A stretch of DNA of 64,000 bases from positions 806,001 to 870,000 of the forward strand of contig NC_092409.1 of NCBI RefSeq assembly GCF_009017415.1, given 5' to 3'. A program made the translations under genes and the position numbers. Position 1 is the stretch's first letter; each line of letters opens with the position of its first letter. The notes below the pieces were generated by a model. That model was not told where the DNA came from, searched no databases, and saw only the letters and a list, made by a program, of their open reading frames with translations. The stretch comes from Aspergillus flavus (Eukaryota > Ascomycota > Eurotiomycetes > Eurotiales > Aspergillaceae). Shown in pieces: positions 1 to 58,178 of the stretch.

Positions 1-905
1 AACGTATGAAGTAGCTATTAAATATTAGCCCAACATTACTGATGTTACGCAGTGTGACGTGCATACATGGGAAATAAGTGGTAAGCCTCCTCCATTGATA
101 TTAACCCTAACTCAACAGGGTCCAGGTCCGGGCTAACATCTCGCGGCGGGCCATCGTCAGGAGGGCGAAAATAATCTGTGCACTTGGGATTACTTGTCGG
201 GGCCGCAAAGAGAGCGTCTAGTCCACTCTGGAGCGATTCTGAGCTCAATTGTAGGCCTAGTGACACGTATGTTGACCGTTCATTTAGATTACCAATACTC
301 GTCAAGTACGGCGTTGGTCCTTCATCTGTCGATTCAACGGTGGATATCGGAGTATTCGATACCGATTCGGACTGGATGGCCCCGGAAGCAGCGACAAGAA
401 GTGCTAGAGGATTACTGACGGGGTCATGACCGACATGCGAGGTGATCCCAGCTTGCTTAATAGTAGTGGACTCTGTCACGACCGGATTGCTAGACGCAGC
501 CTGGACGTTGGCAGCTTTCCCGTTGGTCGGTCGGTGGGACTGCCCCTCATTGCTTTGCATTTTCGAAAGTAAGAGATCGAATACTTCCTTTTCTGCGTTC
601 TGTATATTATTAACGTCCTGTGAACTATTTCCTGAGGCACGTCCCCGTTTTAGATGCTCTTTCATCTGCCGACAGGCCTTTTCGAGCCCCCGATAGCGAC
701 CAACCGCACCTGGCCGGCGCCCCAAAGGTTGGGAAGGAGGAATGCTACAGGTGCGGCCATTCCGTCTGCATCGATCGCATGGCTCGCTAGAGTCTTCTGG
801 TCGACTTGGACGGACGCATCTCATCTTCAGCTTGCGACATGCTTCGCAGGCCACAGTGGAGGGTGACCGGCGAGTCTGCTGTCTCGTCACCGGTCGACTA
901 GCCAT
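1..905 (-). CDS. Zn2Cys6 transcription factor, C-terminus beyond left edge
   Basis: N-terminal part of a fungal-specific transcription factor. The binuclear cluster lies near residues 20-55, with CEACRKLKMRC followed by CDRCRRNGRTC, the six cysteines of a Zn2Cys6 DNA-binding domain. A basic stretch and a Ser/Thr-rich, probably disordered linker follow. The start is taken at the ATG whose first base is 905; the reading frame upstream of it has only a GTG. The frame stops near 45, but a GT...AG intron with a CTAAT branch-like element runs to about 15 on this strand, so the gene very likely continues past the left edge. It is divergent from the FAD oxidoreductase gene and is the natural candidate regulator of the cluster to its right; that role is inferred from position only. 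Confidence 0.85.
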
Positions 906-1421
906 GATCACGTCAGATTAATACAGATCAATAATGATAAAGTGATACTGGAGGGGGTCGCCCAATTGCCATAGTTTAAAGTTTGAAGCGAATGATCTTC
1001 GCAGAACTTGGATAGTTGGTCGGTGGTCTTCGTCGCCGTGAGGATGATTAGAATTTAGAATTCGCAGGGATGATCTGAAATCTTCAATCTCCGTCTGATC
1101 CACTTGGCTTCTTGGCAGGCACTGAACAATGAGGCTCAATCACCTTGTCCTCCATCCCATTGCAGTCCTAGCTGTCCTGCTGCTGGAATAATCGCATAAA
1201 AGTGATATATCGAGTGCACTGAAGTGGTGGCCCCTCAATTGGTTACCCTGCATTAAAAAATCACCGGCTGTGGGTCCTCCGGTCTATTTATTTAGACGCC
1301 GGAGGTATGATTTTATACAGTCTTAAATTCACTCCTGTATTGTTGACTTGCACCGCGCAACTTCTACTTTATTCCCTTTTGTTCGTTTTGAAGACAACGG
1401 AAATAACTATATATTTCAAAT
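906..1421. promoter_or_regulatory. Divergent promoter between the regulator and FAD oxidase genes
   Basis: The 516-bp intergenic stretch separates two divergent genes. It contains an inverted repeat with arms CCTCCGG (1276-1282) and CCGGAGG (1299-1305), extended by TCTA/TAGA inside the arms. Inverted CGG triplets of this kind are the usual target of Zn2Cys6 dimers. The centre lies about 130 bp upstream of the oxidase start. Binding by the neighbouring regulator is an inference. Confidence 0.45.
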
Positions 1422-3187
1422 ATGCAAACAATCTCAGTCGACGTCCTGGTGTGTGGCGGAGGCATGTCGGGCATGGCCTGCGCCGCCTTCGCCGCCGAGT
1501 CCGGGGCTAAAGTCCTAGTGGTAGAGAAGCAAGCAGTTGTTGGCGGTTCGTCAAACTACTCTGCGGGGATGTTGTACGTTTCTAGACTACTTCAAGTACA
1601 AAAGAATCCTACTGACAACGTCTAGTTGGGCACCCAAGAACTACAATAGTTTGCGATCGTGGGTACCAGACGGTGATCCAGAGCTTCAAGCTGCATGGAT
1701 GAAAGACTACTTGCCTGCGGTGCAATGGATGCGAGAGAACAGCATACCCACAGCCAAACGATTCGATGGAATCATGACAATCGGTATTGATTATATACAA
1801 ATTACTATACACAGGAGACTATTTACATCAGAGCTGACAAAGAAACAGGCATCGGCTTTCCCATCAAGATCCCTCAGCTCCACCTACACCACCAACAACG
1901 CATACGGGATAGCACAGGATCCCAGATCTTCACCAATACCGCCGTCGTCAAACTCCTTCAAAAGCAGCCTGGTGTTCCCGGTTCTCCTATCGTCGGCGCG
2001 ATCATTCGACGTGGGCCAGTAGATGGCGCGGGCGCTGTCTATTACGAAGTCAAGGCTCAGCACGTAGTCCTTGCCACCGGGGGGTTCCAGGGGAATGCAG
2101 GACTGACATCTATGCACCTCGGCCAGGGAGGAGACAATATCTTTGTACGCTCGAATCGAGGATCAGTAGGAGATGGATTAACGCTGGCCACTGCGGTAGG
2201 AGCAGGCACGAGTCGGGGGATGAATACGTATTATGGCCATTTATTGGCGGCTCCTTTGCGGTCAGAAGCTGTCGATCCCAAGAACTTTTTGTCGCTGGCA
2301 CAATACCGTATGTACAATTCAGCCGTTGTTCATTATCTGATCATTGACACGTCCTCGCAGAAAGCAAATATTGCCTGCTCATTAACGAGCACGGACGGAG
2401 GTTTGCCGACGAGACGACCGGGGATGAAATCGTGAACCAATATCTTGCGAAACAGGAGAAGCGTCGTGGATTCCTTCTATTCAAGTACACTTCTTCCCCG
2501 TGTCAGCTGCACCACAGCCCAATAACTGACCTTTCATATCCTCAGCGACCGGACAAGAAGACAGCACTGCATTTCGGCTCCGTTCCCCAACGCGGGAGAG
2601 ATCGATCGGCTCGAGAAAGCCCGCGAACACGGATGCAACGTCGCTAGTGCTCCCTCCCTAGACGGGTTAGCAGAGATCCTCAATCAGTGGGGGGTAGATG
2701 GCTCGCAAGCCCTCCGAACAATCGAACAGTACGATCGCTTCATACGGCTGGGCGATAAGACATCTACGCTCGACGCGCCGGTCGGAAAAGCTGGAAAGCC
2801 TCCTGTTTCTTTGGTGGAAGGTGAAGGTCCTTTCTTCGTCATGGAAGTCCAACCATCGTACGTGCCCCCGGATATGATCCATGCTTGGCTAAAGTGTTGA
2901 CTCTTGACAGAATTACGTTCACCTACGGCGGCGTTCTTATCAACGCTGAGGGACGTGCCCTTACTCCCGACAAGACTCCTATCCCAGGTTTACTGATCGC
3001 AGGTGTTGACGGCGGAGGATTTAGCAATCTTGGGTATGCTGGTGGTCTCGCGCTGGCATTTGTCACGGGTCTCTGGGCTGCTAGGACCATCGCGACCGAG
3101 TTGAAGTTGCCAGTGCCGCAGCTGCCGGCGGCGGATTTGCGAGACGCAGGGCCACACGAGGACCCGGTCATCGCCAGTCGGTTGTAG
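1422..3187 (+). CDS. FAD-dependent oxidoreductase (FAD_binding_2 / fumarate reductase-like)
   Basis: Six exons (1422-1573, 1626-1783, 1834-2307, 2361-2484, 2546-2857, 2911-3187) join in frame to about 498 aa. The N-terminus has the dinucleotide-binding fold: DVLVCGGGMSGMACAAFAAE and then VVEK with GGSS, typical of the FAD_binding_2 family that includes fumarate reductases and 3-ketosteroid dehydrogenases. Later family landmarks are VLATGGFQGN near the middle, GRRFADE, and the C-terminal second FAD contact region GLLIAGVDGGGFSNLGYAGG. The second intron (about 1784-1833) is the least certain join. It appears intact. It probably oxidises or desaturates a lipophilic product, and its place between the regulator and the exporters suggests a tailoring step in the terpene cluster. 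The substrate cannot be told from sequence. Confidence 0.85.
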
Positions 3188-4941: not shown

Positions 4942-6045
4942 ATGCCCCAGAGTTATTTCGCTCTCCAAGACATTGAGGCAAGGTCCAGTCTTGACAGAAA
5001 TGAATCCACTGATCATGCCGATGATGATAAAAATAGGCTGGATTTATTGGATGTAGCAACAATCTCCGGCATCTCAATCTTGCGAAGGATCGCCGTGTTC
5101 GGCCTCTTCGCTATTTACACTCTTCTCGTATTTCTCATCGGACATACCTCGACGACATCGAGCATTTCGCATACACATTATTCACCAGCATTGTCCTATC
5201 TCCAAGGTAAAGCTCTCAGTGATAAACTGATCAAACATTGACTTGTACGCAGATAAACACCTCAAATCACTCCCACAGATGTACGATAAAGTGATCACAT
5301 TCAACGGGACTTTGGACTACCCATCAGAATTCCGCGGCCTACCCTCTCCAGATGTTGATCGTGCATGGAATCGTTCAATCAATCCTAAGTGCTCTTCTGA
5401 TATGGACTACAGACAAATTTTGTGCACCGCCAATACTCACAGAGGCATATAGTTGGAGCAGTGAATGTTTCTTTCTCCGAGGAGGACATGCGACTACTAG
5501 GTGTCGATCCAGACACGTCAGTCAAACTTCCCCCTGAGGATGGAGGAGTCTACCGACTTCAATTTGAATCCTCGCATCAGATGCATTGCTTGGTAAATTG
5601 TTCTTTACCATTATCTATATGATCTTGTGGATCGGTAAAGGGCTAATGTAGTTCAATGCGTATATATCTCTTGAAGAATTATTTACGAATGCGGACATAT
5701 CGAGAATATTACGAAGGCACCCACGAAGAGTTTTTAGACTCTCCGGCGATGCAACGCATGCACATAGTTGTGTTAGAAAATCCTTCATTTAGAGACCAGC
5801 TTCTCTCTAACTATAAAACTAGATCATTGCATTGAATGCTCAGGCAGTTCCTCATGTGTCATGCGGATACCAATCTCGTTTCTACGAATTGGGTAGCAGG
5901 GCGCCAGAAACCCTACCCCAACTTCAACACTAAACATACCTGTCGAGACTTTAATGCAATTGTCGATTGGGCCTGGAACCATCAGATACCCATTAAACCG
6001 AGCCCCAAGCCAGCAGGGGTGCATGAATTATTATACCCGCCGTAA
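4942..6045 (+). pseudogene. UstYa/DUF3328-family oxidase, frameshifted
   Basis: The product would have a short N-terminal tail, one membrane segment (about residues 48-68), then the family's conserved run: SEFRGLPSPDVDRAW, SEEDMRLLG, HQMHCL (first HxxHC), LLKNYLRMRTYREYY, a second DHC element, LRQFLMCHADTNLVST and HTCRDF near the end. UstYa-family proteins catalyse oxidative cyclisation or hydroxylation in fungal clusters. Introns near 5206-5254 and 5389-5445 join sensibly. Two later joins do not: around 5594-5650 the frame after HQMHCL cannot be reached with the visible GT/AG pair, and around 5835 the frame shifts one base between the DHC element and LRQFLM. The gene is therefore probably inactive, unless unusual splicing or sequence error explains both. 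Confidence 0.7.
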
Positions 6046-6266: not shown

Positions 6267-7998
6267 CTATCCAGTACTACAAGCCGTCTGGGAAGGTACT
6301 CTGACCGCAGATATAGCAATCAAAGCGAGCCCGTATAGCCCTGCAGCAAGTAGAAAGGGCAGACCGAGCCAGATAGCACCCATGACCATCCCCTGATGAT
6401 ACACGGCTGCCAGTAAGGGCCCTGATACTAGAGACCCGATTGAGCTCATCACACTCATAAGTGCATAGGTTGTGTTCAAAGATGCTGTGTCAACAAGAGA
6501 AGTCACCAATGTTCTCGCGGTGACAGAAAACGACGCGCCTAATCCAAATATTACAATCCCAATGCTGAGCAAGATCAGGTTTGGCGCGAGGAAAATCAAT
6601 AAACACCCCAGAAGCATCAGTAGCGCATTCACCTGGGTGATGATACTGTCTCTCGAGATAACCTCTAATCCTCGATGCCGGTCCAGAAAATGTGTCCCGG
6701 CGGGAAGCAGAATAAATAAAGATACCAGGTTAGTGCCAGCTCTGAGCGGCAGTACGTATGAAGCCTGCAGTATAAATATAACATTTAGCATTGGCCGCTG
6801 ACCAGGAACTTGTTAATTATCCGAAGTACGCACCTCAGCATATGATATGTGAAACCTTTTAGAGACGTACTGCAGCAATACCCCAAAAGCATGGGTCCCG
6901 AGAAGTGTCACAAAGAAGGAGGCAACAACCAATGCGGCATTTCTGTTCTGTACAAGTTGATTATAGAACTGCCGAATTCTCTCCAAAGCATACCAAGTTC
7001 TGGCCGGCTGCTCCTCGTGAGCTGTGGTAGAAGCTGGCTCAGTCCGATTACGGATTGCTGGGAAAAAAAAGACTGCCCAGATCACTGAGATGGCCGCAAT
7101 CACAGAGGATGCGAGGAATGGTATCCAAGGGTTGATTGTCATGAGTGCGGCACCAATTGGGGGTGCAATCAACTCTGTCGTCAAAATAACTGCGGTCATT
7201 TGAGAGAAGACATTCGTTCTGGTACATGCGCTCTCAGTAACTAACGTTAGACAAGTTCTGTGGGAGTGTGTCTACCTTTTGTTCGCAGGGGTGATAGTGG
7301 CTACAGCTGAAAAGGACAATGAGGTTACGACCTGTGGCCCTCCCCCTAAGATCTGCCACACTGCAGAGAGCCAAAGGGCACGGGTTGGTAAGGTGGGATG
7401 AAGCCAAACTATGAATGGAATCGTTAATGTTCCAAGCTATATGTCACTGCATGGTAGGACTAACAAACTACTCTACTCCAGTTGGAGCTCATGGCATTGC
7501 CCAGGAAGGCCAATAAAGCGACTGGCCTGTAACCAATCTTGTCCGCCAGCATGCCGTAAGGCAAGGCAAGAAGTATGGCTATCCAAAATCAGCTTTGCTG
7601 TCTCGGGGAAGAGAAAAAAGAAGTGGCTCTTGGGCTTGTCAAAAAATTAGCTTACCAGGGATAGTCTCGAAGGTTTCTCGCCAGCCATTGAGCAGAGCAA
7701 TCTCAGTCTGGACAGGGTCTATCTTACATCTTTCTAAACTCGGAAGAATCGGGTTCGCAGTAGTGGTAGCATAATAATCCCGGCATACTATATCTTCTAA
7801 GATCGCAACCTCTGCGACCGAACCCAAATTGTTTGAAAGATCGAACAGGACCGCTCCACCGCACAGCAATATAACTGTAGTGATCCAGTGTGAGTCAGAT
7901 GGGGCTTTCTTGCCTCTATATACCTGATCTGGGCTTCCTGGGGTCTCTTGAAGCAGACTTGTTGCTTCATCGCAAGAGGTGTTCTGCGATGAAGGCAT
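6267..7998 (-). CDS. Major facilitator superfamily transporter
   Basis: Five exons on the minus strand (7998-7656, 7578-7477, 7408-7276, 7230-6834, 6764-6267) join in frame to about 490 aa, the usual length of a 12-helix MFS carrier. Visible landmarks are LPYGMLADKIGYRP at the loop between helices 2 and 3 (G-x-x-x-D-x-x-G), the run TNVFSQMTAVILTTELIAPP, and repeated hydrophobic segments. The fourth intron uses a distal acceptor that restores the run AEASYVLPLRAGTN; a nearer AG would give a very short intron. The gene is divergent from the ABC transporter, sharing 327 bp of promoter. A role in exporting a cluster product or protecting the producer is inferred from context. Confidence 0.88.
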
Positions 7999-8325: not shown

Positions 8326-11300
8326 ATGGCAGATCAGGCATGCGACCGTGCCGACAACGCCTTCGGACCCAAAGTTCGGGGGTGTCGCGATGAGACGGAT
8401 TTCACCCTATTCTTTGAGCAATCTTTCTTCTCATTACTTCCCTCTATATGCTTCTTGGTGTGTTCTCTGTACCGATATTTGAAGCTTGTCAAAAAGGAAA
8501 GGGTACTCAAGTCCTCACTGGACGGACTAATGTTTGCAAAATTGGTACGAACAACCATCTCAATGCCGGGACCATGCACGAAGAATCCCTGAGCTAAACA
8601 GAGACCAGACAGCGATAGCCACTCTCGGATGCCTGCAAGTAGCGTTGATCGTTCTTTATGCCTTACCTGGCGGCGAGTTGACGAGAGTTTCTATCGCATC
8701 CGGTGTGCTCGGCTTCCTGGCCACACTGACCCTGGCTGTTATGTCCTACCAAGAACATCATCGTTCAATTCGTCCATCTATTTTGTTGGGTGTATATCTT
8801 ACCATTAGTACTCTTTTAGATGGCAGTCAAGCGCGGACCTTATGGCTGAGAGGAAATCATCGACCAATCGCGATTGTATTCTTTGCAATGGTTGTTCTTA
8901 AACTGATCACACTAGTAATTGAGTCTATTCAAAAACGCCATCTGCTGAGAGGTCCTTACTCTCATTACCCCTCGGACGCTCTAGGAAGCATGTACAATCG
9001 AGGTGTGTTCTGGTGGTTGAATTCGCTTCTCCTCCAGGGCTCTTCCCACCTTTTTCAGCAAGGGGACCTTCCGCCACTGGATCCAAAATTGGCATCGGAA
9101 ACTGTCGGCTATCAAATGGAATCTGCCTGGCAAGGATGTTCGAAAACTTCAAGGTATAGCCTTGCGTGGGTAGCATTGAGGGTCGCTTGTAGACCTCTAC
9201 TCTGTGTTATATGTCCCCGAATCTGTTTAATTGGCTTCAACATCGCACAGCCACTTCTGATTTACCGGGTGATTTCATTCCTGGACGATCCAACGAATGA
9301 CCAAACCCGCTTCATTGGTCGGGCATTAATAGGTGCTGCTCTTTTGGTATACTCAGGAATTGCACTTTCTACGGCAAGCTACCAGCATCAAATCTATCGA
9401 TACATCACCCTAATTCGTGGGGGCCTTCTTAGCCTGATATACAACCAGACGCTTCGTCTTTCAGCAGGTACGCTGACTGATCACTCCGCAGCTACTCTGA
9501 TGAGTGAGGACTTTGATCGAATTGCAGTAGGCTTTGAACACTCAGACGTAGTATGGGCTTCGCCCATTGAGGTGGCTTTGGCAATCTATATCTTGTACCG
9601 GGAAATCGGGCTCGCTTGCTTTGCGCCTGTGATTATTGTGGTTGGTAAGTGCAAGCAACCCTATCATAACATTTTTGCATTCATGACTAATATTGCTTTT
9701 CCTAGGATGCGCTGGATCTGCCTATAGTTTGTCAAACCGGGCAAAGGTCGCACAACAACACTGGATGAACGCTTTACAGGATAGAATTAGTTCGACATCT
9801 TTTTTTCTCAGCAACATCAAAGGGATTCGCATATCTGGCCTCTCAGAACCATCATCTACCAAAATTGATAATCTGCGTATCCACGAGTTGAACAAATCTA
9901 AAAGGTTTCGGCAGAATGCTACCACCAGAATGACCATCGGTGTCCTTCCGGAGACAATCGGGCCTGCTGCAGCTTTCATTGTCTATGTTCTTATCGCTAG
10001 GCGCTCCGGTCAAGGCATACTCGATCCGGCGAAAGCTTTCTCGGCCTTATCTCTTGTCAGTCTACTCAGCAAGCCTATACTGAATTTCTTGTACGCTTTC
10101 CCCATACTCGTCGCTTCCTTGAGCTCCTATGACCGGATCCAGAATTATCTCTTGATGAACCAGGGGAGGCTGAATTCTGCCTTAGCTTCTTTGGAACAAT
10201 CGAAGCCACGGGAGAGAGATCTGTACCCAGTAAAGGTCCCAGTTTTAGACACTGTGCAGCTCCAGACACTGGACCAGCCAGACCGGCGCAAGCCGTCTAA
10301 TTCTTTAATCAAGATCAACAACGCTTCATTTTCCTTTAAGACAGATGATAAACCCACATTTCAAGGGGTCTCTATAAACATCAAACGAGACAGTGCTTAT
10401 ATTCTCATTGGACCGGTCGGAAGTGGCAAGAGCGCGTTCTTGCTGGCGCTACTTGGAGAGCTCAAGCTGACAGAGGGAACAATGCTCAAGGCACCAGAAT
10501 GCGGAATTGCTTACTGCTCCCAAGAGCCATGGCTACCAAACCTTTCTATCCGCAGTATCATTCAAGGTCCTTCAGACTTCGATGAAATCTGGTATGCAGA
10601 GGTGATCAATGTATGCTGTCTTGAAACGGATATTGCCAGTCTCCCACAGCAAGACATGACTGTGATTGGAATTAAAGGTATGCGTCTAAGTGGAGGTCAA
10701 AGACGACGTATCAGCCTCGCAAGAGCTGTCTACTCACGGAAACAGCTTCTTCTGTTGGATGACATCACCAGTGGGCTTGATACGGTGACAGAGAACCTGG
10801 TCATCCAAAGGCTGTTGGGACAGAAAGGTATATGTCGGAAGTATGGATTAACTGTAGTTCTTGCAACGCACAAAGGTGAGCAGCTTTCTTACTATGCCCA
10901 AAGCTTGTTGGCCAATACTGACATGTGCAGTACATTTCAAACACATGGTTGACACTATTATCGAGGTTAATCCAGACAGCTCCACTGTGAATGTTCAGCG
11001 GTCTTATCAGATCCCCGAAACCCCAGAAATATATGAGGATGATCCCATGATACAGCTCGATGTTTGTCCTGGCAACCCGCAACCCGATATTCCGGAAGAG
11101 CAGGCTACGAGAGTAAGCGAAGCACCCTCCGATGTGTCTCGGAGGATAGGTGATACCAGTCTATATCTCCTCTATGCAAAGGAAATGGGCCTAGCCTCCG
11201 TGATCATGGTCATTTCGACATCGATTGGGTTTTGTTTCTTCAGCAGGTTCCCCAATATCTGGCTTAAGTGGTGGTCCGAGGCGGAAAGTCGGGAGCCTAG

Positions 11301-13029
11301 CAAGCGCAATGTCCGTTATATAGTTGGCTACGCAGCCTTTGGGGTCTCCGCCACAGTCTGCTTCCTTTTACTGTACTGGATCTTTCTGGTTGAATCCATA
11401 CCTCGCACGTCTATTCGTTTACACAGAAGACTGCTGAAAGCTGTCACAGCAGCCCCTCTCTCGTCTCTCATTTTAGTTGATACCGGATTCATATTAAATC
11501 GCTTCAGCCAGGATATGTCTTTACTCGACATGAGGCTCCCGGGTGCGATGATACAGACTCTAGACGGTCTTCTTGATGCAATCGCTGAAGGTGTCCTAAT
11601 CGCGCAATCGTCCCCGTGGACAGCATTGACTTTCTTCCCTCTTTTGGCCATTCTTTACGCTATACAAAAGTTCTACTTGCGTACATCGCGGCAGATTCGA
11701 CACTTGGACCTTGAGGCAAAATCACCCCTTTTCACCAGTATCATCGAAACATGCGACGGTATTACTACGATCCGGGCATTTGCCTGGCAAGAAACTTTCC
11801 GTCAGCTCAACATGTCCCTGATCGACGAATCACAGAAACCATTCTATCTCATGTACTCAATCCAGTGCTGGTTAACCCTTGTTCTCAACTTACTGGTGAT
11901 GGGAATTCTTGTTGTTCTGGTTGCTTTGGCCGTTGAACTGCGCAACACATCTGGCGGCGCTCTTGGTGTTGCGCTCAACAATGTTTCCGCCATTAGCGCG
12001 ACTTTGGCATACGTTATTCAAGCCTGGACCTCGCTCGAAACATCAATAGGGGCTTTGGCAAGACTGAAAAGCTTTCAATCTGAAACACCGTCCGAGCATC
12101 TTCCAAACGAATGCCATGATCCCGGAAGTACGTGGCCATCGACAGGCATGATCCAATTCATTGATGTCACAACACAATACCGGTGGGTTATATTGTCTGC
12201 TCTTTGTGAATTCCCGGTCCTCAAGCTGCACATAGTACTCTAACATAATGCTTAGAGCCGACTTAAAGCCTGTGTTACACGATATCAACATCAAAATACC
12301 CTCGGGGGCCAAAGTAGGCATATGCGGGCGTTCAGGAAGGTAAAGCTGGAATTCCAATTTTCAATAATCCAAGAAAGAGTCTGTACCTAACTATCTTACA
12401 GCGGGAAAAGCTCCCTAATAATGAGTTTGCTGCGGCTAAACGAAATCACAAAAGGAAACATTTTCATCGACGACGTTGACATCACCCAGATCCCTCGAGA
12501 GACCATCCGACGCCAGTTGGCCGTATTACCACAGGACCCATTGATCTTGTCAGGGTCAATACGCTTGAACCTTGATCCGTTGCAAAAGCATACCGACGAG
12601 GCCATTACTTCTGCTCTTTCTCGGGTGGGAATGCTAAAATCATTGTTATCCAAAGGATTTGACCTAGACAGCCTCGTTAGGAAAGACACATTTTCTTCCG
12701 GTCAGCAGCAACTCATTTCCATTGCGCGGACATTGTTGAACCCATCTCCTATCTTGCTGCTCGATGAAGCGACGTCAATGATGGATATGCAGACAGAAGC
12801 GACTATCATGAACTTGGTCCGGGAGCAGTTCGGAAATCGTACTGTGGTTGCAGTGGCCCATCGACTTCATACGATAGTTGACTTTGATCTCGTGTTTGTC
12901 ATGTATCAGGGGACTATTGTTGAGTCTGGGACGCCGGCTGAGCTACTTCAGAATAGAGAGGGGTGGTTTACAAACTTATGGATGAAGCAAGTTCAGGATG
13001 GTGCTCAGCATGTCGATGAGCCTGCATAG
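8326..13029 (+). CDS. ABCC-type (MRP-like) full-length ABC transporter
   Basis: Six exons (8326-8544, 8609-9644, 9706-10875, 10931-12182, 12256-12339, 12402-13029) join in frame to about 1462 aa, the normal size of fungal ABCC multidrug exporters. The start is the ATG before ADQACDRAD; the following run, with FGPKVRGCRDETDF, is the usual N-terminus of this group. Layout is TMD0, TMD1, NBD1, TMD2, NBD2. NBD1 has Walker A GPVGSGKS (about residue 650), signature LSGGQRRR and Walker B LLLLDDITSG, with Asp where the catalytic Glu would be, as usual in ABCC NBD1. NBD2 has Walker A GRSGSGKS, a divergent signature FSSGQQQL and LLLDEATS with the catalytic Glu. It is an ATP-driven membrane exporter, probably for the cluster product or its toxic intermediates (inference). 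Confidence 0.92.
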
Positions 13030-13166: not shown

Positions 13167-14302
13167 TCACAAATAAAAGAATAGGAAGATAATGCCTATA
13201 ATAAACAATACTCCACATACTATAGAACTTCTGGGAGCTGAATGAAGGGGCGGTGCTATTGCACTCCCTGGTGCAAGGTACCTATCCGAAGTACTCGTAA
13301 AGAAATGCAAACCCCCTGCTGCCAATCGAAAAGTAATAAGGTATGATTGCATGTCAGGAGACAGCGTTCCGGCATTCATCAGGCGCTCGAGTGCTGAGTT
13401 ATGACTTTCTTCCAGCGCAATGATCTGCCGCTTAATGGACTCAAGAGCTTCCTCCTCCGAAATGCCTTCTACCTGCTGAAGAAAAGCAACCGCATTTGCT
13501 CCTTTCCCTTGTTGAAAGTGCTCTTTGTCTTTGGGCCAACTAAAGTAATCATTACAGAGCGCCATCGCTCTTTCAAGTGGCCGAGTAACCTCTTCAATCA
13601 TAGACATAGACTCATCTGGAGCACGAAAATCCATGGCAAGACCAATAAACTTGGCGAATACGCTGTGCGGCTTTAGCACTGGATGTCTGGAATTTTATGA
13701 TGCTCTACTTACTGGAATCCACTGTAAACAAGTCGCCTCTCCATAAACTCCTCAAATGTAGAAGGAATGGGGCCCGGATCAATTCTCGATGCGTGATATT
13801 CTTGTGCAGAAATAAGCAACGACATCGTACTGGGATGATCAATGTCGAGTGTGTCTTCAACCAACCCCCTTTGGATTCTTTCATATGCAGTTTTAGCGGC
13901 TGACGGACGACAATCCACTTCTTTACCTAATACCCAGGCATCCGGCTCATCCAGTAGATCTGTCCCTTAGCGCAATGGATCAAGTCTAGTGAGTACTACG
14001 GTGTGGGAAAACTAACCATTATCAAGAAAAAGGAATTCAATGAATTTAGTCAGGATAGGAATCATCTGAGGAGGGCATTCTGGGAATACCAGGGATACAC
14101 AGTGCCCAAAGGGGCCTTGTGCACCTATCAATGGCCCACTTGATTGAGGTATGACTTTCTTCCACTCCTTGAGGTACTGTTTTCTTACTGCTTGGATTGT
14201 GGTTTCATCTTTGCGAACTCGAATTGGGAGAGTAGTAAATGAAGGACAATTTTTGAGAATCTCGGGTTTTAGTGGTTCTGAATATTGATAGTCGACCATC
14301 AT
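13167..14302 (-). CDS. Stand-alone class I terpene cyclase with C-terminal membrane tail
   Basis: Similar to the cyclase half of fungal bifunctional terpene synthases: SFTTLPIRVRK near the N-terminus, PFGHCVSLVFPECPP before the metal-binding helix, the metal triad NDYFSWPKD (an NSE-type motif with Asp for the last Glu), and TSTSDRY late in the domain. Such enzymes ionise a prenyl diphosphate and cyclise it. Exon 1 is 14302-14017 and the last exon is 13662-13167. The middle exon ends at 13713, but its acceptor is unresolved: 13917 or about 13888 keep the frame, while the acceptor at 13967 reads DNGTD (a good D(D/N)xxD) and then needs a 29-nt gap or an indel. With 13917 the protein is 328 aa. 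The fused trans-prenyltransferase domain is absent; instead the protein ends in about 19 hydrophobic residues at the extreme C-terminus, like a tail anchor. Confidence 0.85.
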
Positions 14303-14721
14303 GGGTGATATACTTGGGGATGACAAACTGAAGAGACACCGGGGGCTCTATTCAGCACGAACTGCTGGTTCGGAGTCTGATATTCAACGGATATTATAAA
14401 TTGTGTTTGACTGACTACGGGAGTAACCGCATCATAAATCACTTGACAGATAGCAGCAGCTCCGTAAATTGAATGCGAAATATCTATGCAAGGGATGAAA
14501 TATTGCCCCCTACCCCTTTACGTATGGTGGGTCAGCTCAGCCGCAGCTGTCGGATCGCCTCTATGGCGTGGTGATTGCCTGTATAGCGTGGTGACATCTC
14601 ACAAATTACTACGCACGGTCCTCCCCTTGCTTTTTGCTTATCAGTATGCCTTTTCTTCCACGTAGTCATTTAGCAATCGGAATATTCCCAATTTGAACTA
14701 TACTACTTTCTAAGCTTCCTG
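14303..14721. promoter_or_regulatory. Divergent promoter of the cyclase/cis-prenyltransferase pair
   Basis: This 419-bp spacer separates the two core biosynthetic genes. It carries an imperfect direct repeat, GCCTCTATGGCGTGGTGA (14557-14574) and GCCTGTATAGCGTGGTGA (14577-14594), with 16 of 18 matches and a 20-bp period, that is two helical turns. It could be a paired operator for the cluster regulator (inference). Head-to-head placement implies co-expression. Confidence 0.5.
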
Positions 14722-15676
14722 ATGTACTCTCAACTAATAAGAGATGAAGCCATCAATATCATTCGAAGGGGACCTGTCCCCCAGCATATCGCATTTATTA
14801 TGGACGGGAACCGACGGTATGCAAAGGGACACGGGATACCAACGGCAAAAGGGCATTATCTAGGTGCAGAAGCGATGTCAAACGTATGTTTGCCAGCTGG
14901 CTGAACACCACTCTAAACTGATCTAGCCAGCTAATCAAATTCAGGTTGTTGAAGCATGTTTTCTAAGTGGCGTTAAAGGTGTCACTGTGTACGCTTTCAG
15001 CCTTGAAAACTTCAAGCGGCCCAAAGAAGAGATAGTTCAACTTATGAATCTATTCAAGTTCCAGATCTATGAACTATGCAAGCCAGGAGGTCTAGCAGAG
15101 CGCTTCCAAGTTTCTATCAGAGTGTTAGGTCAGTTGGACCTTTTGGACGAGGATTTGAAGGCACTATTGCGTCAAATTATGGTGGACACCCGGAATCGGA
15201 CTGGGGGATTTATAAACTGCTGTGTTGCCTATACCTCCCGTGATGAGATAGTGACTGCCATGAGTAGAGCTGTGCGCTCCTCTCAACTTAAGCATTCGTC
15301 CGCGGATATCACGGATGAGGTTCTGACAAGATATATGTATACGGCTGACGATCCCGCAGTGGACGTATTGGTCCGGACGTCTGGTGTCAGTAGGTTGAGC
15401 GACTTTCTGCTCTGGCAGTGTCACGAAGACACTGATATTCAGATTGTGGACGCCATGTGGCCGGAGTTTGGCATCTATCATCTCTTCCTTGTCATAGTAC
15501 GATGGCAGAGAAAACAGATGAACATTGGCCAAGCCAATATTCAGACGGCGGTTGGTGGAGTGCTGATCTTTTTGGTTTCACTTGTTGCATTCATGGTTAT
15601 GTGCACATGCATATCTCGAGGTACATCACCATGGACCTTCAAATTGCCTCTATCCTGGACCTTGTCACTAGCGTGA
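14722..15676 (+). CDS. cis-Prenyltransferase (Rer2/DHDDS/UPP synthase family)
   Basis: Two exons (14722-14883, 14945-15676) join to 297 aa. All main family regions are visible: HIAFIMDGNRRYAKGHG (diphosphate and Mg binding, about residues 21-37), VTVYAFSLENFKRPKEEI, VRTSGVSRLSDFLLWQ and MWPEFGIYHLFLVIVRWQRK. The family adds isopentenyl diphosphate units with Z geometry and normally makes dolichol precursors. In the RTSG motif a Val occupies the place often held by a metal-binding Glu. I see no C-terminal RxG element, so it resembles the catalytic subunit that pairs with Nus1. After the WQRK run the frame continues about 50 residues, including a hydrophobic segment (TAVGGVLIFLVSLVAFMVMC), so it may be membrane-anchored. 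It is divergent from the terpene cyclase. It could be a cluster-specific substrate supplier or an extra dolichol synthase; position favours the former. Confidence 0.9.
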
Positions 15677-15970: not shown

Positions 15971-15992
15971 TTAGTCATCAGTATAAGCTAAA

Positions 15993-16023
<31 letters not shown>

Positions 16024-17118
16024 CTTCTTCTTCTTCTTCTTCTTCTTCTTCAGAGGTTTCCTCTGAAGTCTCTCGCACCGTGTCTCCATCGTCGGAAAAG
16101 CCTTCAGAAACTTCCTCGAGTTCCTCATCCGTGACGTCTACCACGCCACTCATGGCGGCGATCAAATTCAAAACCACTGCATTTACAATAGATCAAAGGA
16201 TGGGAGTGGCATAGCCTCCGGATCCCGGGTCGTCATCGTCACGAGTTGGCCGGAGTAGATAGGTTGATCTGTGTCGCAATTCCACAGCTTAGCATTGTAG
16301 GGACTTGCCTTCAGATCTGATGGGAGGGAGGGAGCCACGCACATGTCCATCTCTTTCGAGTAGGCTCGACGAGGTAGCCACCAGAACCGCATTGTAAGTG
16401 ATGTCTTCTCCTCAGACATCTTAACGGGTTCAAAGGCCAGGCGTGCCGAGCCCCAGAGGTCATGCACAACGGTCGAGAGGCACAGTAGGTTTTGAGGTAC
16501 CTCTGTGCCGTTAGGGCCGATGATATCCTTCTTCCACCTATCGACCGTCTCCAAATCCCAGAAAATTTGCAGGATATTCCAAAACTTCTCCTTTTCCCAT
16601 TCGGCTTCAATTCCCAACGCAAACGGGTAGATGTGGCATACCTGGACGGGTTCACCCATCTTTATAATGGCACAGCACCCAATATATCTCTCTTCGGCCA
16701 TGTCCCTGACAGCTAGAGACCACTCCAGCCGCGGACGTTTACTTCGAGATCTAAGCTCCCCCGTTGACTTTCGTTTGCGTGACGTTGTTGGGGACGCCGC
16801 AAGTGCGGATGTGGATTCGGTTGGTTCGACCGGTTGTTCTATGGTTTCTGTAGGCTCGTTTTTTCTCGACGAGCGAGCAAGCCATGCCTTCAATGCATCC
16901 ATACAAAGCCGGGTGTTCATCAAGCTAAGTTTAACTAAAGATTTGAACATAATATCCGACTCCAGGTGTTCTACTCTTCTCCGTAGAGACTCGAGGTCCC
17001 CTAGCCATAGCAGCGCATGTGTTGCAGAATCAACATACTTACGACCGATTGCGTGGCTAAGTCGTTGGATAAGGTGCAACCTCTCCTCCGACAAGAGTTC
17101 GGGAGCAATAGAAGCCAT
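15971..17118 (-). pseudogene. HNH-nuclease domain protein, C-terminus cut by a stop codon
   Basis: The open part (17118-16183, about 311 aa, starting at the ATG of MASIAPELL) has an N-terminal helical region, a basic patch (RKRKST...RSKRPR) and then an HNH_2-type domain: CHIYPF, NLLCLS and HDLWG supply the H, N and H, followed by LTMRFWWLPRR. This is a large fungal family of unknown role. The frame stops at TAA (16185-16183). In the next bases a second frame resumes with LNLIAAMSG and an acidic, Glu-rich tail to 15971, the usual C-terminal continuation in relatives (from memory). A nonsense change plus a 1-nt slip would explain this. The truncated product may still be made, since the HNH core is intact. 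Confidence 0.65.
15994..16051. repeat. (CTT)n microsatellite
   Basis: About nineteen uninterrupted CTT units. On the minus strand it reads GAA and would encode a glutamate run at the former C-terminus of the HNH gene. Length polymorphism is expected. Confidence 0.95.
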
Positions 17119-54121: not shown

Positions 54122-57100
54122 TTACTTATTCCTGCCTCTTTTCTGTTCCAGATCCTCGATGCTTCTCATGGTTACTCTTGTCTCCTCGTGATCCATGCCT
54201 AATACCCGCTGGCTACCCTGTAATGCCAAATTGAACCACTTCATCGCTTCATCATATTGACCGAGAGCTTTATAACTCTCTCCAATATTGTGAGAGCTGG
54301 CCAGGGTATCTTCATGGTCAGGGCCCAATGTTTTGTTTCTCCCTACCCATGCAATCTGATGCCATTCCAATGCCTCACCATAGCGATGCAGTGGGAGAAG
54401 GATCTCACCAATATTAAGGGCGCTTTGTAGTGTGTCTTGGTGGTCTGGGCCTAATGTTTTATTTCTCCCTCTCCATGCAAGCTGACTCCATTCCAGTGCC
54501 TCACTATATCGGCCCATAACGAAAAGAACATAACCAATATCATGGGCACTTTGTAATGTGTCTTCATGGTCTGGGCCCAAGGTCTTGTTTCTTCCTTTCC
54601 ATGAAATCTGGTCCCATTCCAATGCCTCACTGTGTCGATCCATCAGGAATAAACTTTGACCAACGTTTTGGGCACTTTGTAATGTGTCTTCATGATCAGG
54701 GCCCAATGTTCTGTGTCTCTCCTTCCATGCAACCTGACTCCATGCCAGTGCCTCACTATATCGATCCAGTAGGGAAAGAATATACCCAATATCATGGGCA
54801 CTTTGTAATGTGTCTTCATGGTCAGGACCTAATGTCTTGTTTCTTTCTTTCCATGCAATCTGGTCCCATTCTAATGCTTCGCTGTGTCGATCCAGTAGGA
54901 CAAGACTGTGACTAATATGACAGGCACTTCTTAATGTGTCTGCATGGTCAGGGCCCAATGTTGTATTTCTTGCATAAAAAACGAGCTGAAACCATTTGAC
55001 TGCATCCTCATACTTCCCTTCATTGGAAAGCTGCTGCCCAATAGCATAGGCTGAATTAAGAGACAAAGAATTTTCTATACCCAAGCTAGCCGCTCGGCCT
55101 TCATATGCCATGATCCTTAGTTGTAGAGCTTCATCATGGGATCCATCTTTGTCCAGTATCGTAGCTATACCCATAACAGCACCAAGGGTTGCATAATGTT
55201 GTTCGCCTTGGACCCTTTGTCTGGATGTTAGGACCCATTCATACCACTTTCTTGACTCCTGGATGCGACCCTGGAGTAGTACTATCCACGCAATATCCCC
55301 GGCGATATATAACGCACGCGGATGTTTGGGGTGTAGTACTCTTCTTGCCTCTGCAAATTGCCAGCGAAATAGTTGTTCTGTATTTTTATGCAGGGTGTGG
55401 CTTCTTAAAACGATGGTCAGCTTGTATGCAAGCCACCATATGTCGTTTTCGGCCTGTTCTTCCTCGTAAAGCATTGATAGGAAAAATAACTTGATATCGA
55501 GGATAGCCGCCCACATCCAAAGAAACCACCCTTCTGTAATTGCGTACACCACTGAGAGTGTATGTGGAAGAGAAATATCACTGGGTGGATCGTAGGAGTT
55601 TCCAGGTTCCAAGGACCCCGACAGATTCTGAACATTCTTGAGGGCGGCGTGAAGATGAGATGAAACTCGACTTTCAAACAAGGCATACTTTTGCGCTGAA
55701 TAGCTCTGTTCTGTTAGACGTAGAGCGCGAGCAATTAGGCGAAGGGCTTCTTCTGAGAGCCGGCGTTTCCGTTCCAGTGGCAAGCGCTGTTGAGCCCAGT
55801 AATGTATCAAGGGGTGAATCGTGATGGCATCCATTGTTGCCGAAAAGCGGGCGAGCGAGTAGGATGAGAGAACATGCATTAGATCCTGGAGTGGTATATC
55901 TGGGCGATGAGTATAGTCACGTGGCTGAGCAGGTGTCGAGGCTGCACTTACTGTATTGCTGAAATCGACTATACGTGAATAGTTCTTCGAAGATATCATT
56001 ATTCGACAGAAATCCACACAGAAGAAGTAGCTCAGAAGCCTCTGGAATATCCATTTCAATTCTCCGCAGTGAGACTTCCCAAGTAGTAAGTATTGTGTCA
56101 TTTCGATAGTCCCATACTGACTGTGGCCGCTTGTGCTTCAGGAGCCTCTCTGCATTCAAATGATATTCATGAATATAACGCTGGAGCGCCTGAGAGTAGA
56201 GGCCAGACTCATGCGGCAGAAATTTGTGCTGAACAGAAATGTAGGCGCCAGCCTGTTCTATGGCAAGCGGAAAATGTCCTAGTAACTGAAGCAGCTCTAG
56301 GGAGACCTCTTCTAGAATCAAAGTCAACAAGTCAAACGGCATTGAGAAGGTAATAACTCAAACAAACCATTCATATCCCCGGAGAATCCAGAGCTTTTTG
56401 CCAATAAGGATTTAACTTCTTTATCACTCATTTTCTCCACTTCTACACTCCTCCAATAACCAGAGACGTCCGCCCGCCGACTCGTGATGAGGATATTCCC
56501 GTGTAGAGAGCTGGGCATATAAGACCGGATATCAAATGAGTCCAGGTCATCTATATTGTCAAAGATCAAGAGCCAATCATTGTTTTCGAGTTGAGAAAGC
56601 CAGTCAATTACTCCCTTGACAGCTTGGTCGGCAGTTGGGGTACTGGAAGTCTTTGAATCCTCAACACCAAAGTCTTTGGCGAATATCTGATAGGCTGTCT
56701 CATTATGATTCAATCTGCGCCAGCTTTTCAAGATTTGTCCGGCAGCAACAGAGAAGCTTTGTCTGATAGTATGTTCACTAGCCCCATCAATCCAAAACAC
56801 CGAGGTATAACACCGCTGATAATGATAGGCGTATTCTGCCGCAGTTTGTGTCTTTCCAATACCACCAGGACCATAAAGTGCGACGATGCATTGCTGCATA
56901 TCTTGGCAATCTTCCTGTAAATAATAATGTATCTGTTGTAAGAGACGTTCTCTGCCAGTAAATCTGTCGTTCCTAACCATTGGTAGTTGGAGTGGGATCG
57001 ACAGTTCCGCCTGTTTGTTCAGGGCCTGACGCGGCCTTTTAGGAGATTTCGCACTCATTGTATTGATCAGGACAGCCAAGATAGTCTGGTAGCTGGAGTC

Positions 57101-58178
57101 CCGAGATCCAAACTTGTTCAATCCAGAGTGGTCGACAGGGAGGCCAATATTTCTCACTTTAACCCCTCCATATTTTGCTGACTGCTCGCGGACACACTAC
57201 AGCCATTATCAGTATGACTAGTTAGATATGATAGCACTCGCAACATACAAATTCTCTCCATCTGAGGAACCAAACACTCAGGATCAAAGTCGGACGCTGT
57301 TCAAAGATATTGAAGACCTGAACTCTGTCGCCAACGGCTGCCTCAAATGAAGTATGCAGGTCTAATAGAAAGGTTGAATCGTACTCGACCTCAGCCAGCA
57401 TAGATGGACTTGAACCAATCAGCCAAAGAGCACGGGCAGCTATGCGACCCCATTTGCTGAAGCTCGATCCACGATGTGGAGTACCCAGGAAAAGGATCGC
57501 TTTCGTATACGTGGAAATACTTGCAAAGTTTTGATTCCCATTAGCCTGGACAAGGGCGTGTTTGACAACCAATCCCCCATAACTATAGCCCACAAAGATC
57601 AGGTCCCGCTGCTGCTCCTTGAGTGCACGTTAGTGACTGCAGTTTTAAAATACGCGGTCTTCGATCCAAACCTACTGCTTCCGATCGACGCATGGTGTTG
57701 GTGATGTGCTCGAGTAGGTCATTACCAATATTTGCGAGGCGTGTCTGGACCGCGTCCCTCTTCCAATATGAGTCGAAGTTGAAGAAGAAAATCCGCACAT
57801 CTTGATGGTCTGGCAAACTGAGATCATCTGGAAGAAAGTCACTAATCCATGACGGGTATTCTGTTGATGCACCTGTCGTTTGTGTCGATGTTCTAGCCCT
57901 CCATGTCGTATCAGGATTCGACCCGAGGCCATGAACGAAGACGATACTACGATATATTAGCTGTAGTCTATTCGTAGGTGTGGAGTTACAAGGGAAAGCT
58001 ACTCAGTTCCACGTTTATGGACCAGGGAAGAATAATTTCGAGCGGGGACGATCCCCAATCCTGCTTTATGAGCTTGATCTGGATTAACTGGCGATGGGAT
58101 GTTCTTGATAAGTTCGTTGTAAGTCAGCAACCCTAGGAATGGCAGGAGCAATACGAATGTGTAAAGCCGGCCCCACAT
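54122..58178 (-). CDS. NLR-type STAND protein: membrane anchor, lipase-like, NB-ARC, TPR repeats
   Basis: Six exons on the minus strand (58178-58003, 57946-57676, 57617-57249, 57196-56368, 56311-55952, 55899-54122) join in frame to 1260 aa. It starts with a membrane segment (RLYTFVLLLPFLGLLTY), then an alpha/beta-hydrolase domain with VFVHGLGSNP (oxyanion region) and GYSYGGLVVKHAL (nucleophile Ser). The NB-ARC part has P-loop ALYGPGGIGKTQ (about residue 380), Walker B-like WLLIFDNIDD, NILITSRR and FPLAIEQAGAYI (the GLPL-like motif). The C-terminus has a run of 42-residue tetratricopeptide repeats, several nearly identical around LGPDHEDTLQSAHDIG. This is the standard layout of fungal NLR-like receptors tied to non-self recognition and programmed cell death. 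The ligand is unknown. Confidence 0.9.
54150..55000 (-). repeat. Near-identical TPR-coding tandem repeats
   Basis: About six units of 126 bp (42 codons) inside the NLR gene. The core LGPDHEDTLQSAHDIGY is shared almost unchanged by several units, with differences clustered in a few places such as YILSLLDRYSEALAW against YVLFVMGRYSEALEW. Such high internal identity marks recent duplication or unequal crossing-over. Confidence 0.85.

Follow-up and report, generated by a model that had tools for sequence, protein, structure and literature searches.

A predicted accessory cis-prenyltransferase gene divergent from a stand-alone class I terpene cyclase gene in Aspergillus flavus: a possible route to Z-configured terpenoids

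Background

The closest described arrangement comes from a plant. The tomato chromosome 8 cluster brings together CPT2 (a nerylneryl diphosphate synthase), TPS21 and CYP71BN1, and co-expression yielded a diterpene from the CPT2 product (PMC4364678). Among cis-prenyltransferases at large, heteromeric enzymes generally make chains beyond C70 and homodimeric ones chains of C10 to C55, according to PMC7839719, and a Methanosarcina cis-prenyltransferase is reported to perform C- and O-prenylation (PMC8131916). A related gene arrangement was analysed here in Aspergillus flavus, in a stretch of 64,000 nucleotides (hereafter the window) that corresponds to positions 806001-870000 of contig C2 in a genome of 37.7 Mb and eight contigs. 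An earlier note on this DNA had proposed that a cis-prenyltransferase provides a Z-configured prenyl diphosphate to the divergent terpene cyclase, and knew of no characterised fungal pathway of the kind. Its interpretation was partly supported by our data; as for the pathway, no fungal counterpart was found among open full-text papers judged by titles and the starts of abstracts, a corpus that leaves most subscription papers and all preprints outside.

As in the tomato cluster (PMC4364678), a cis-prenyltransferase gene adjoins terpene cyclase and oxidase genes at the A. flavus locus. The tomato cluster may be taken as a working analogue, offering a precedent that pairs of a cis-prenyltransferase and a terpene synthase can work. 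The resemblance is limited: the Aspergillus cis-enzyme is nearest to human DHDDS in the PDB and carries a hydrophobic tail, whereas the tomato system relies on plant short-chain cis-enzymes and on a terpene synthase family unrelated to the fungal cyclase.

Gene content of the locus

The cyclase and cis-prenyltransferase genes lie on opposite strands and are read away from a short spacer, as the earlier note had described (Table 1). Splice sites were read from the DNA and the gene models have no transcript basis; the three introns of the two genes are of the GT/AG type, measure 50-61 bp and leave both reading frames open. The neighbouring genes named in that note (ABC and MFS exporters, an FAD oxidase and a Zn2Cys6 regulator) were recovered with unequal clarity. 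The ABC match is clear, the PF00172 and PF00890 matches barely exceed their cut-offs, and the MFS frames stay under the PF07690 cut-off, the call being backed by a homologous stretch in A. arachidicola P0122 with a precomputed PF07690 match. Absent from the list had been a UstYa-family gene, which is flanked by the FAD gene on one side and the MFS gene on the other.

Table 1. Positions (window numbering) and supporting matches of the cluster features
Feature	Position	Strand	Evidence
Zn2Cys6 regulator, N-terminal part	48..917	-	PF00172 E 4.4e-5
FAD_binding_2 oxidoreductase gene (approximate)	1419..3187	+	PF00890 E 9.2e-5, one exon; GGGMSG N-terminus
UstYa-family (DUF3328) oxidase-like gene, several exons, start approximate	4942..6045	+	PF11807 E 4.3e-20, last exon
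MFS transporter gene (approximate)	6270..7998	-	PF07690 under cut-off, two exons, E 6.1e-4 and 1.3e-6
ABC exporter gene (start approximate, by eye)	8326..13029	+	PF00005 E 2.1e-17; PF00664 E 1.2e-24
Stand-alone class I terpene cyclase (predicted)	13167..14302	-	PF19086 E 3.8e-16; 8yla E 4.9e-22; tail mean Kyte-Doolittle 2.79
Divergent intergenic spacer, 419 bp, presumed shared promoter	14303..14721		start codons ATG 14302 (-) and ATG 14722 (+)
Accessory cis-prenyltransferase (predicted)	14722..15676	+	PF01255 E 5.9e-65; tree; tail mean Kyte-Doolittle 2.71

To the right of the cis-prenyltransferase gene lies an HNH-domain frame, and a long CTT repeat tract (15987-16050) was observed between the two. 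Farther along, an NLR-like gene (54125-57629, minus strand) made of NB-ARC and TPR-repeat frames adjoins a frame with a sub-cut-off match to a DUF676 esterase. In the left flank (C2:786001-806000), no cluster genes were found by Pfam in the 7 of 27 frames scanned, which comprised a rhodopsin-like gene, a ribonuclease, two NACHT-type genes and three frames without match. One copy of a CCG-N7-CGG regulator motif was seen in the spacer and was dropped, because its count over the window (10 matches against 7.66 expected) was not above chance.

According to the earlier note, the window lacks a trans-prenyl diphosphate synthase; this holds, and it extends to the whole of contig C2, where a genome profile search with PF00348 (25 candidates scored) gave no match. 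All 21 PF00348 matches that this search listed fall on contigs C1, C3, C4, C5, C6 and C7.

The stand-alone cyclase

The cyclase gene comprises three exons (14302-14017, 13959-13713 and 13662-13167) separated by introns of 57 and 50 bp, and its product of 342 aa, closed by a stop codon at 13167-13169, has no fused trans-prenyltransferase domain (PF00348). This agrees with its earlier description as a stand-alone member of a class I type that is usually fused. NCBIfam offered no model for it. By sequence, its nearest PDB relatives are the cyclase domains of the fungal bifunctional synthases 8yla, 8yl9 and 7vta, the best being sesterfisherol synthase 8yla over residues 5-307 of 342. Ten PF19086 matches were found in the genome, and the next best cyclase matches, at C5:1.80 Mb and C7:0.18 Mb, both come with PF00348 matches.

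The first of the two predicted metal-binding motifs departs from the class I pattern. Within the Asp-rich stretch DNDLLD, the residues NDLLD align with DDGYE of 8yla instead of the canonical DDxx(D/E), and the P. canescens ortholog P0124 (46% identity) reads ENDLLE, with Asn likewise at the first Asp of DDxxD. At both C5:1.80 Mb and C7:0.18 Mb the codon for the second Asp in DDxxD is interrupted by an intron, as is the matching codon of the window cyclase. The first Asp is read as Asn because the 8yla alignment and the intron position agree. As judged from these alignments, an Asn-for-Asp variant of the first metal motif is common to the window cyclase and its P. canescens ortholog across 46% identity; the motif is visible in these two sequences only, since the other ortholog models begin downstream of it. 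The second motif, NDYFSWPKD, ends in D where P0123 and P0124 have E, as in the class I consensus NDxxSxxxE. Compared with PTTS (8yla), the window cyclase thus shares a homologous domain and, with the two PF00348-bearing loci, an intron that falls inside codon two of the Asp-rich motif, but it differs in the lack of a trans-prenyltransferase domain, in NDLLD replacing DDxxD, in a hydrophobic C-terminal tail and in having a cis- rather than a trans-enzyme as its neighbour.

Orthologs were sought by a protein search based on shared 5-residue words, restricted to 0.55-1.75x the query length (which excludes full PTTS) and to one representative per 90% cluster. Six of the 19 matches were orthologs: A. 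novoparasiticus P0121, A. arachidicola P0122, A. bertholletiae P0123, P. canescens P0124, A. sergii P0125 and P0126. The 13 others were short pieces (93-169 aa), mostly retrieved through the 8yla row. The end of A. sergii P0125 departs from the other orthologs as a frame change would make it do, and the A. arachidicola P0122 model is fused to an MFS protein; decay or annotation error is possible in both cases. A structure model of the cyclase (P0124, 8 rows) was set aside, with a pLDDT of 57.4 and values mostly below 50 over the first 115 residues.

The cis-prenyltransferase and its clade

Two exons (14722-14883 and 14945-15676) encode a protein of 297 aa that covers the PF01255 profile completely (1-219 of 219), in agreement with the clear cis-prenyltransferase announced earlier. 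The catalytic motifs HIAFIMDGNRR, RTSG..RLSDFLLWQ and WPEF are all there; we take the RTSG..RLSDFLLWQ stretch to bind IPP. The best PDB relative is human DHDDS (E 3.4e-52), MM_0014 scoring E 9.3e-17, and the NCBIfam models recovered (n=16) are exclusively of the polyprenyl/undecaprenyl diphosphate synthase type, TIGR00055 being over its cut-off.

A profile search of the genome with E up to 10 identified two PF01255 loci, that of the window and another from C2:5096361 onward. The latter (C2:5.09 Mb), 4.3 Mb away, reads as a 403-aa Rer2, and branch lengths put it very near A. nomiae P0105. In a maximum-likelihood tree of 60 rows (58 of the best 120 of 4016 cis-enzyme matches and two from this genome), the window protein fell in a clade of 24 rows separated from 36 Rer2-type rows by a split supported at 100/100. 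In a second tree of 37 rows (33 of those 120 and four more), in which human DHDDS and an enzyme of bacterial origin served as outgroups, the clade (16 rows) was recovered at 99/97. The inner order and the rooting of both trees are unsure because the program flags long branches. The phylogenetic comparison with the housekeeping Rer2 suggested in the earlier note therefore places the window protein outside the Rer2 group, in a genome that has a second copy. On this tree evidence, the window cis-prenyltransferase is an accessory enzyme belonging to a separate, fast-evolving clade.

This clade includes members from section Flavi, A. aurantiobrunneus, Penicillium species, Arthroderma and a series of section Fumigati species (A. 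udagawae, A. felis, A. lentulus, A. viridinutans, A. pseudoviridinutans, A. novofumigatus, A. hiratsukae and A. turcosus). In both A. novofumigatus and A. aurantiobrunneus, one protein belongs to the accessory clade and another to the Rer2 group. The closest named relatives among the matches listed are from A. transmontanensis (94%), A. minisclerotigenes (88%), A. arachidicola (86%) and A. bertholletiae (69%).

Hydrophobic tails

A hydrophobic C-terminal tail was found in 16 of 24 accessory cis-enzymes versus none of 32 Rer2-type rows, a count drawn from 55 of the 120 listed rows plus the window protein, with related species among them, so that the rows are not independent. The tail was scored as a 19-residue stretch past the WQR motif, whose mean Kyte-Doolittle value is at least 1.77 in the 16. 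No Rer2-type tail reaches 1.2 (n=32, seven of which yielded no motif and were measured over their last 60 residues), and one tail among them, that of P0037, was too short to measure. Eight accessory rows have no such stretch (P0001, P0003, P0005, P0014, P0016, P0018, P0021 and P0098); the tails of P0018, P0021 and P0098 are shorter than 19 residues, and P0001 and P0003 are close relatives with annotated ends unlike the open frame of the window. Beyond named members of section Flavi, the tail is borne by P0006, P0007, P0010, P0012, P0015, P0022, P0067 and P0090, which include Penicillium, section Fumigati and Arthroderma. In the predicted structure of P0002 (32 rows, pLDDT 82.9), which as annotated begins at the catalytic MDGNRR, the last helix (233-252) spans the hydrophobic tail. 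This accessory, mostly tail-bearing clade is the firmest new element of our analysis.

The cyclases of the window, of A. novoparasiticus (P0121, mean 2.68) and of P0126 (2.79) also end in a hydrophobic tail; that of P. canescens (P0124), as annotated, has none by eye. Because both proteins of the pair end in such tails, we infer that both would be tail-anchored on a membrane.

Compared with Rer2, the window cis-enzyme is thus set apart by its separate clade, its tail and its location in a putative biosynthetic cluster. It also lacks, by eye, an insert of about 100 residues present in the 403-aa Rer2 of the same genome; some Rer2-type rows, among them a 296-aa model from A. niger, are likewise without this insert.

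Chain length of the predicted cis-product

The window enzyme shares with Rer2 and DHDDS, besides the full PF01255 domain, the features expected to bear on product length. It aligns without gap to human DHDDS in the helix before the IRVLG strand, as does P0005, which is three residues longer there than the bacterial 1f75. The Ala of YAFS is retained (YALS in P0005); we take this position to be that of A69 in E. coli UPPS, a chain-length gate at which small Ala goes with long chains. The equivalent position is bulky in the short-chain enzyme Rv1086. No RXG motif was seen by eye at the C-terminus, again as in Rer2 and DHDDS. These features suggest a cis-product of medium to long size rather than C15-C20. 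With a DHDDS-like helix and the Ala kept, products would therefore be long, beyond the normal cyclase pocket, and these putative long-chain determinants are the strongest argument against a plain copy of the tomato scheme.

Distribution of the gene pair

The search for conserved adjacency suggested in the earlier note had a mixed outcome: the head-to-head order may be deduced for A. transmontanensis and linkage for A. bertholletiae, but the matches listed contain no pairing from beyond section Flavi. Of 22 residues annotated at the N-terminus of P0001 from A. transmontanensis (MGDIFGDDKLKRHRGLYSARTA), 21 agree with the plus strand of the window read from position 14301, where the start codon of the cyclase lies; this points to the same order there. 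In A. bertholletiae, the cyclase P0123 (58%) and the cis-enzyme P0005 (69%) are on contigs of identical size (193673), which argues for linkage. The cyclase model P0122 of A. arachidicola continues into MFS sequence, suggesting that the MFS gene is tied to the cluster and that the ABC gene is apparently not between the two in this species.

No cis-enzyme was found on a contig of the same size as that of P. canescens P0124 (5016415) among the best 120 of 4016 matches. Likewise, non-Flavi accessory cis-enzymes (those of Fumigati and Penicillium among them) had no cyclase ortholog on same-sized contigs among the matches listed. The section Flavi cyclases P0121, P0122 and P0125 were also without a cis-enzyme on a same-sized contig among the matches listed, which indicates that lists limited to representatives hide much; owing to this and to the bounds of the search, the absence of pairing outside section Flavi is weak evidence. 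One further coincidence, P0045 and P0134 (both on contigs of 3268), was taken as chance among short contigs because P0045 resembles Rer2 (it aligns to Paraphoma P0073 with a score of 1318, against 549 for the protein of the window) and P0134 is a cyclase fragment similar to 8yla.

Interpretation of the pair

The reading that we favour, tentatively and at somewhat less than even odds, is that of a terpenoid cluster in which the accessory cis-prenyltransferase and the stand-alone class I cyclase function together, the former feeding a Z-prenyl diphosphate to the latter at a membrane. In its favour are the divergent arrangement over a shared spacer, the status of the cis-enzyme as a non-housekeeping second copy, the tails on both proteins, the order or linkage suggested for two other species and the lack of a PF00348 match on contig C2. 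The cis-enzyme would take FPP or GGPP supplied by primary metabolism and elongate it in cis with IPP, giving a Z-polyprenyl diphosphate. That hydrophobic molecule would remain at the surface of the ER or of lipid droplets, where both tail-anchored proteins would be sited, and would be ionised and cyclised there by the cyclase. The FAD and UstYa-type oxidases might then tailor the cyclised product, and the MFS and/or ABC pumps might export it. What we infer from the gene content and protein features is that the cyclase takes the cis-product as its substrate, that it does so at a membrane, and in which sequence the tailoring steps follow. Several observations weigh against this pair model: the altered first metal motif of the cyclase and the D that ends its second, the dolichol-like length determinants, the P. 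canescens cyclase without a listed cis-enzyme, the trans-prenyl synthase loci elsewhere that could feed the cyclase, the apparently damaged or fused P0125 and P0122, and the lack of a tail, as annotated, on P0124 and 8 of 24 accessory cis-enzymes.

Another possible explanation, somewhat unlikely in our estimation, is that the cyclase takes all-trans FPP, GGPP or GFPP supplied from other loci of the genome, the cis-enzyme having another role in the pathway, for example prenylating the cyclised product or making for it a carrier or lipid with a long polyprenyl chain. A sesterfisherol synthase, 8yla, is the nearest relative in the PDB and, to our knowledge, such cyclase domains from fungi act on all-trans substrates. 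This explanation comes close behind the preferred reading because several trans-prenyl synthase loci do exist elsewhere in the genome, and it also accommodates the unaccompanied cyclase of P. canescens (among the matches listed) and the DHDDS-like helix length kept by the cis-enzyme family. A C- and O-prenylating precedent is reported from Methanosarcina (PMC8131916); however, the window cis-enzyme is far closer to DHDDS than to MM_0014 and keeps RTSG..RLSDFLLWQ, and no PF00348 match occurs on contig C2. It is improbable that the pair is a decaying remnant or that functionally unrelated genes adjoin by accident. The aberrant end of A. sergii P0125, the fused A. arachidicola gene model and the altered Asp motif of the cyclase would fit such a view, but in the window the frames are open and the splice sites are of the GT/AG type, and the Asn variant recurs in P. 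canescens at 46% identity. Moreover, the chance that the accessory cis-enzyme gene directly adjoins a PF19086 gene is estimated at about 0.002, assuming 12,000 genes, and order or linkage is suggested for two other species. Least likely of all, and quite improbable, is a self-protection copy, insensitive to a cluster product that would inhibit dolichol synthesis. A second copy of an essential-pathway enzyme in a cluster with exporters is what this would predict; yet the cis-enzyme is not a recent Rer2 duplicate but part of a separate fast-evolving clade with a tail on most rows, and this clade is also found in Penicillium and Fumigati species without a cyclase ortholog among the matches listed.

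Returning to the paired cis-prenyltransferase and cyclase, the gene pair itself is real, specific and unusual, and its interpretation is plausible but unproven. It is possible, though a little less probable than the pairing, that it represents the first case in fungi of a class I cyclase receiving its Z- or mixed Z,E-polyprenyl diphosphate from a cis-prenyltransferase, both enzymes being tail-anchored side by side and a long, lipid-like substrate being cyclised at the membrane, and that it is part of a wider, unrecognised clade of tail-anchored secondary-metabolism cis-prenyltransferases in Eurotiomycetes.

Implications

Independently of the cyclase, the accessory clade (24 tree rows, with Aspergillus, Penicillium and Arthroderma named) offers a set of testable enzymes that the tree and, for the most part, their anatomy set apart from the housekeeping dolichol copies. 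Genome mining for fungal terpenoids targets trans-prenyl synthases and cyclases. If cis-prenyltransferases feed cyclases, existing fungal clusters may have been misread and a Z-series of terpene skeletons would be untapped.
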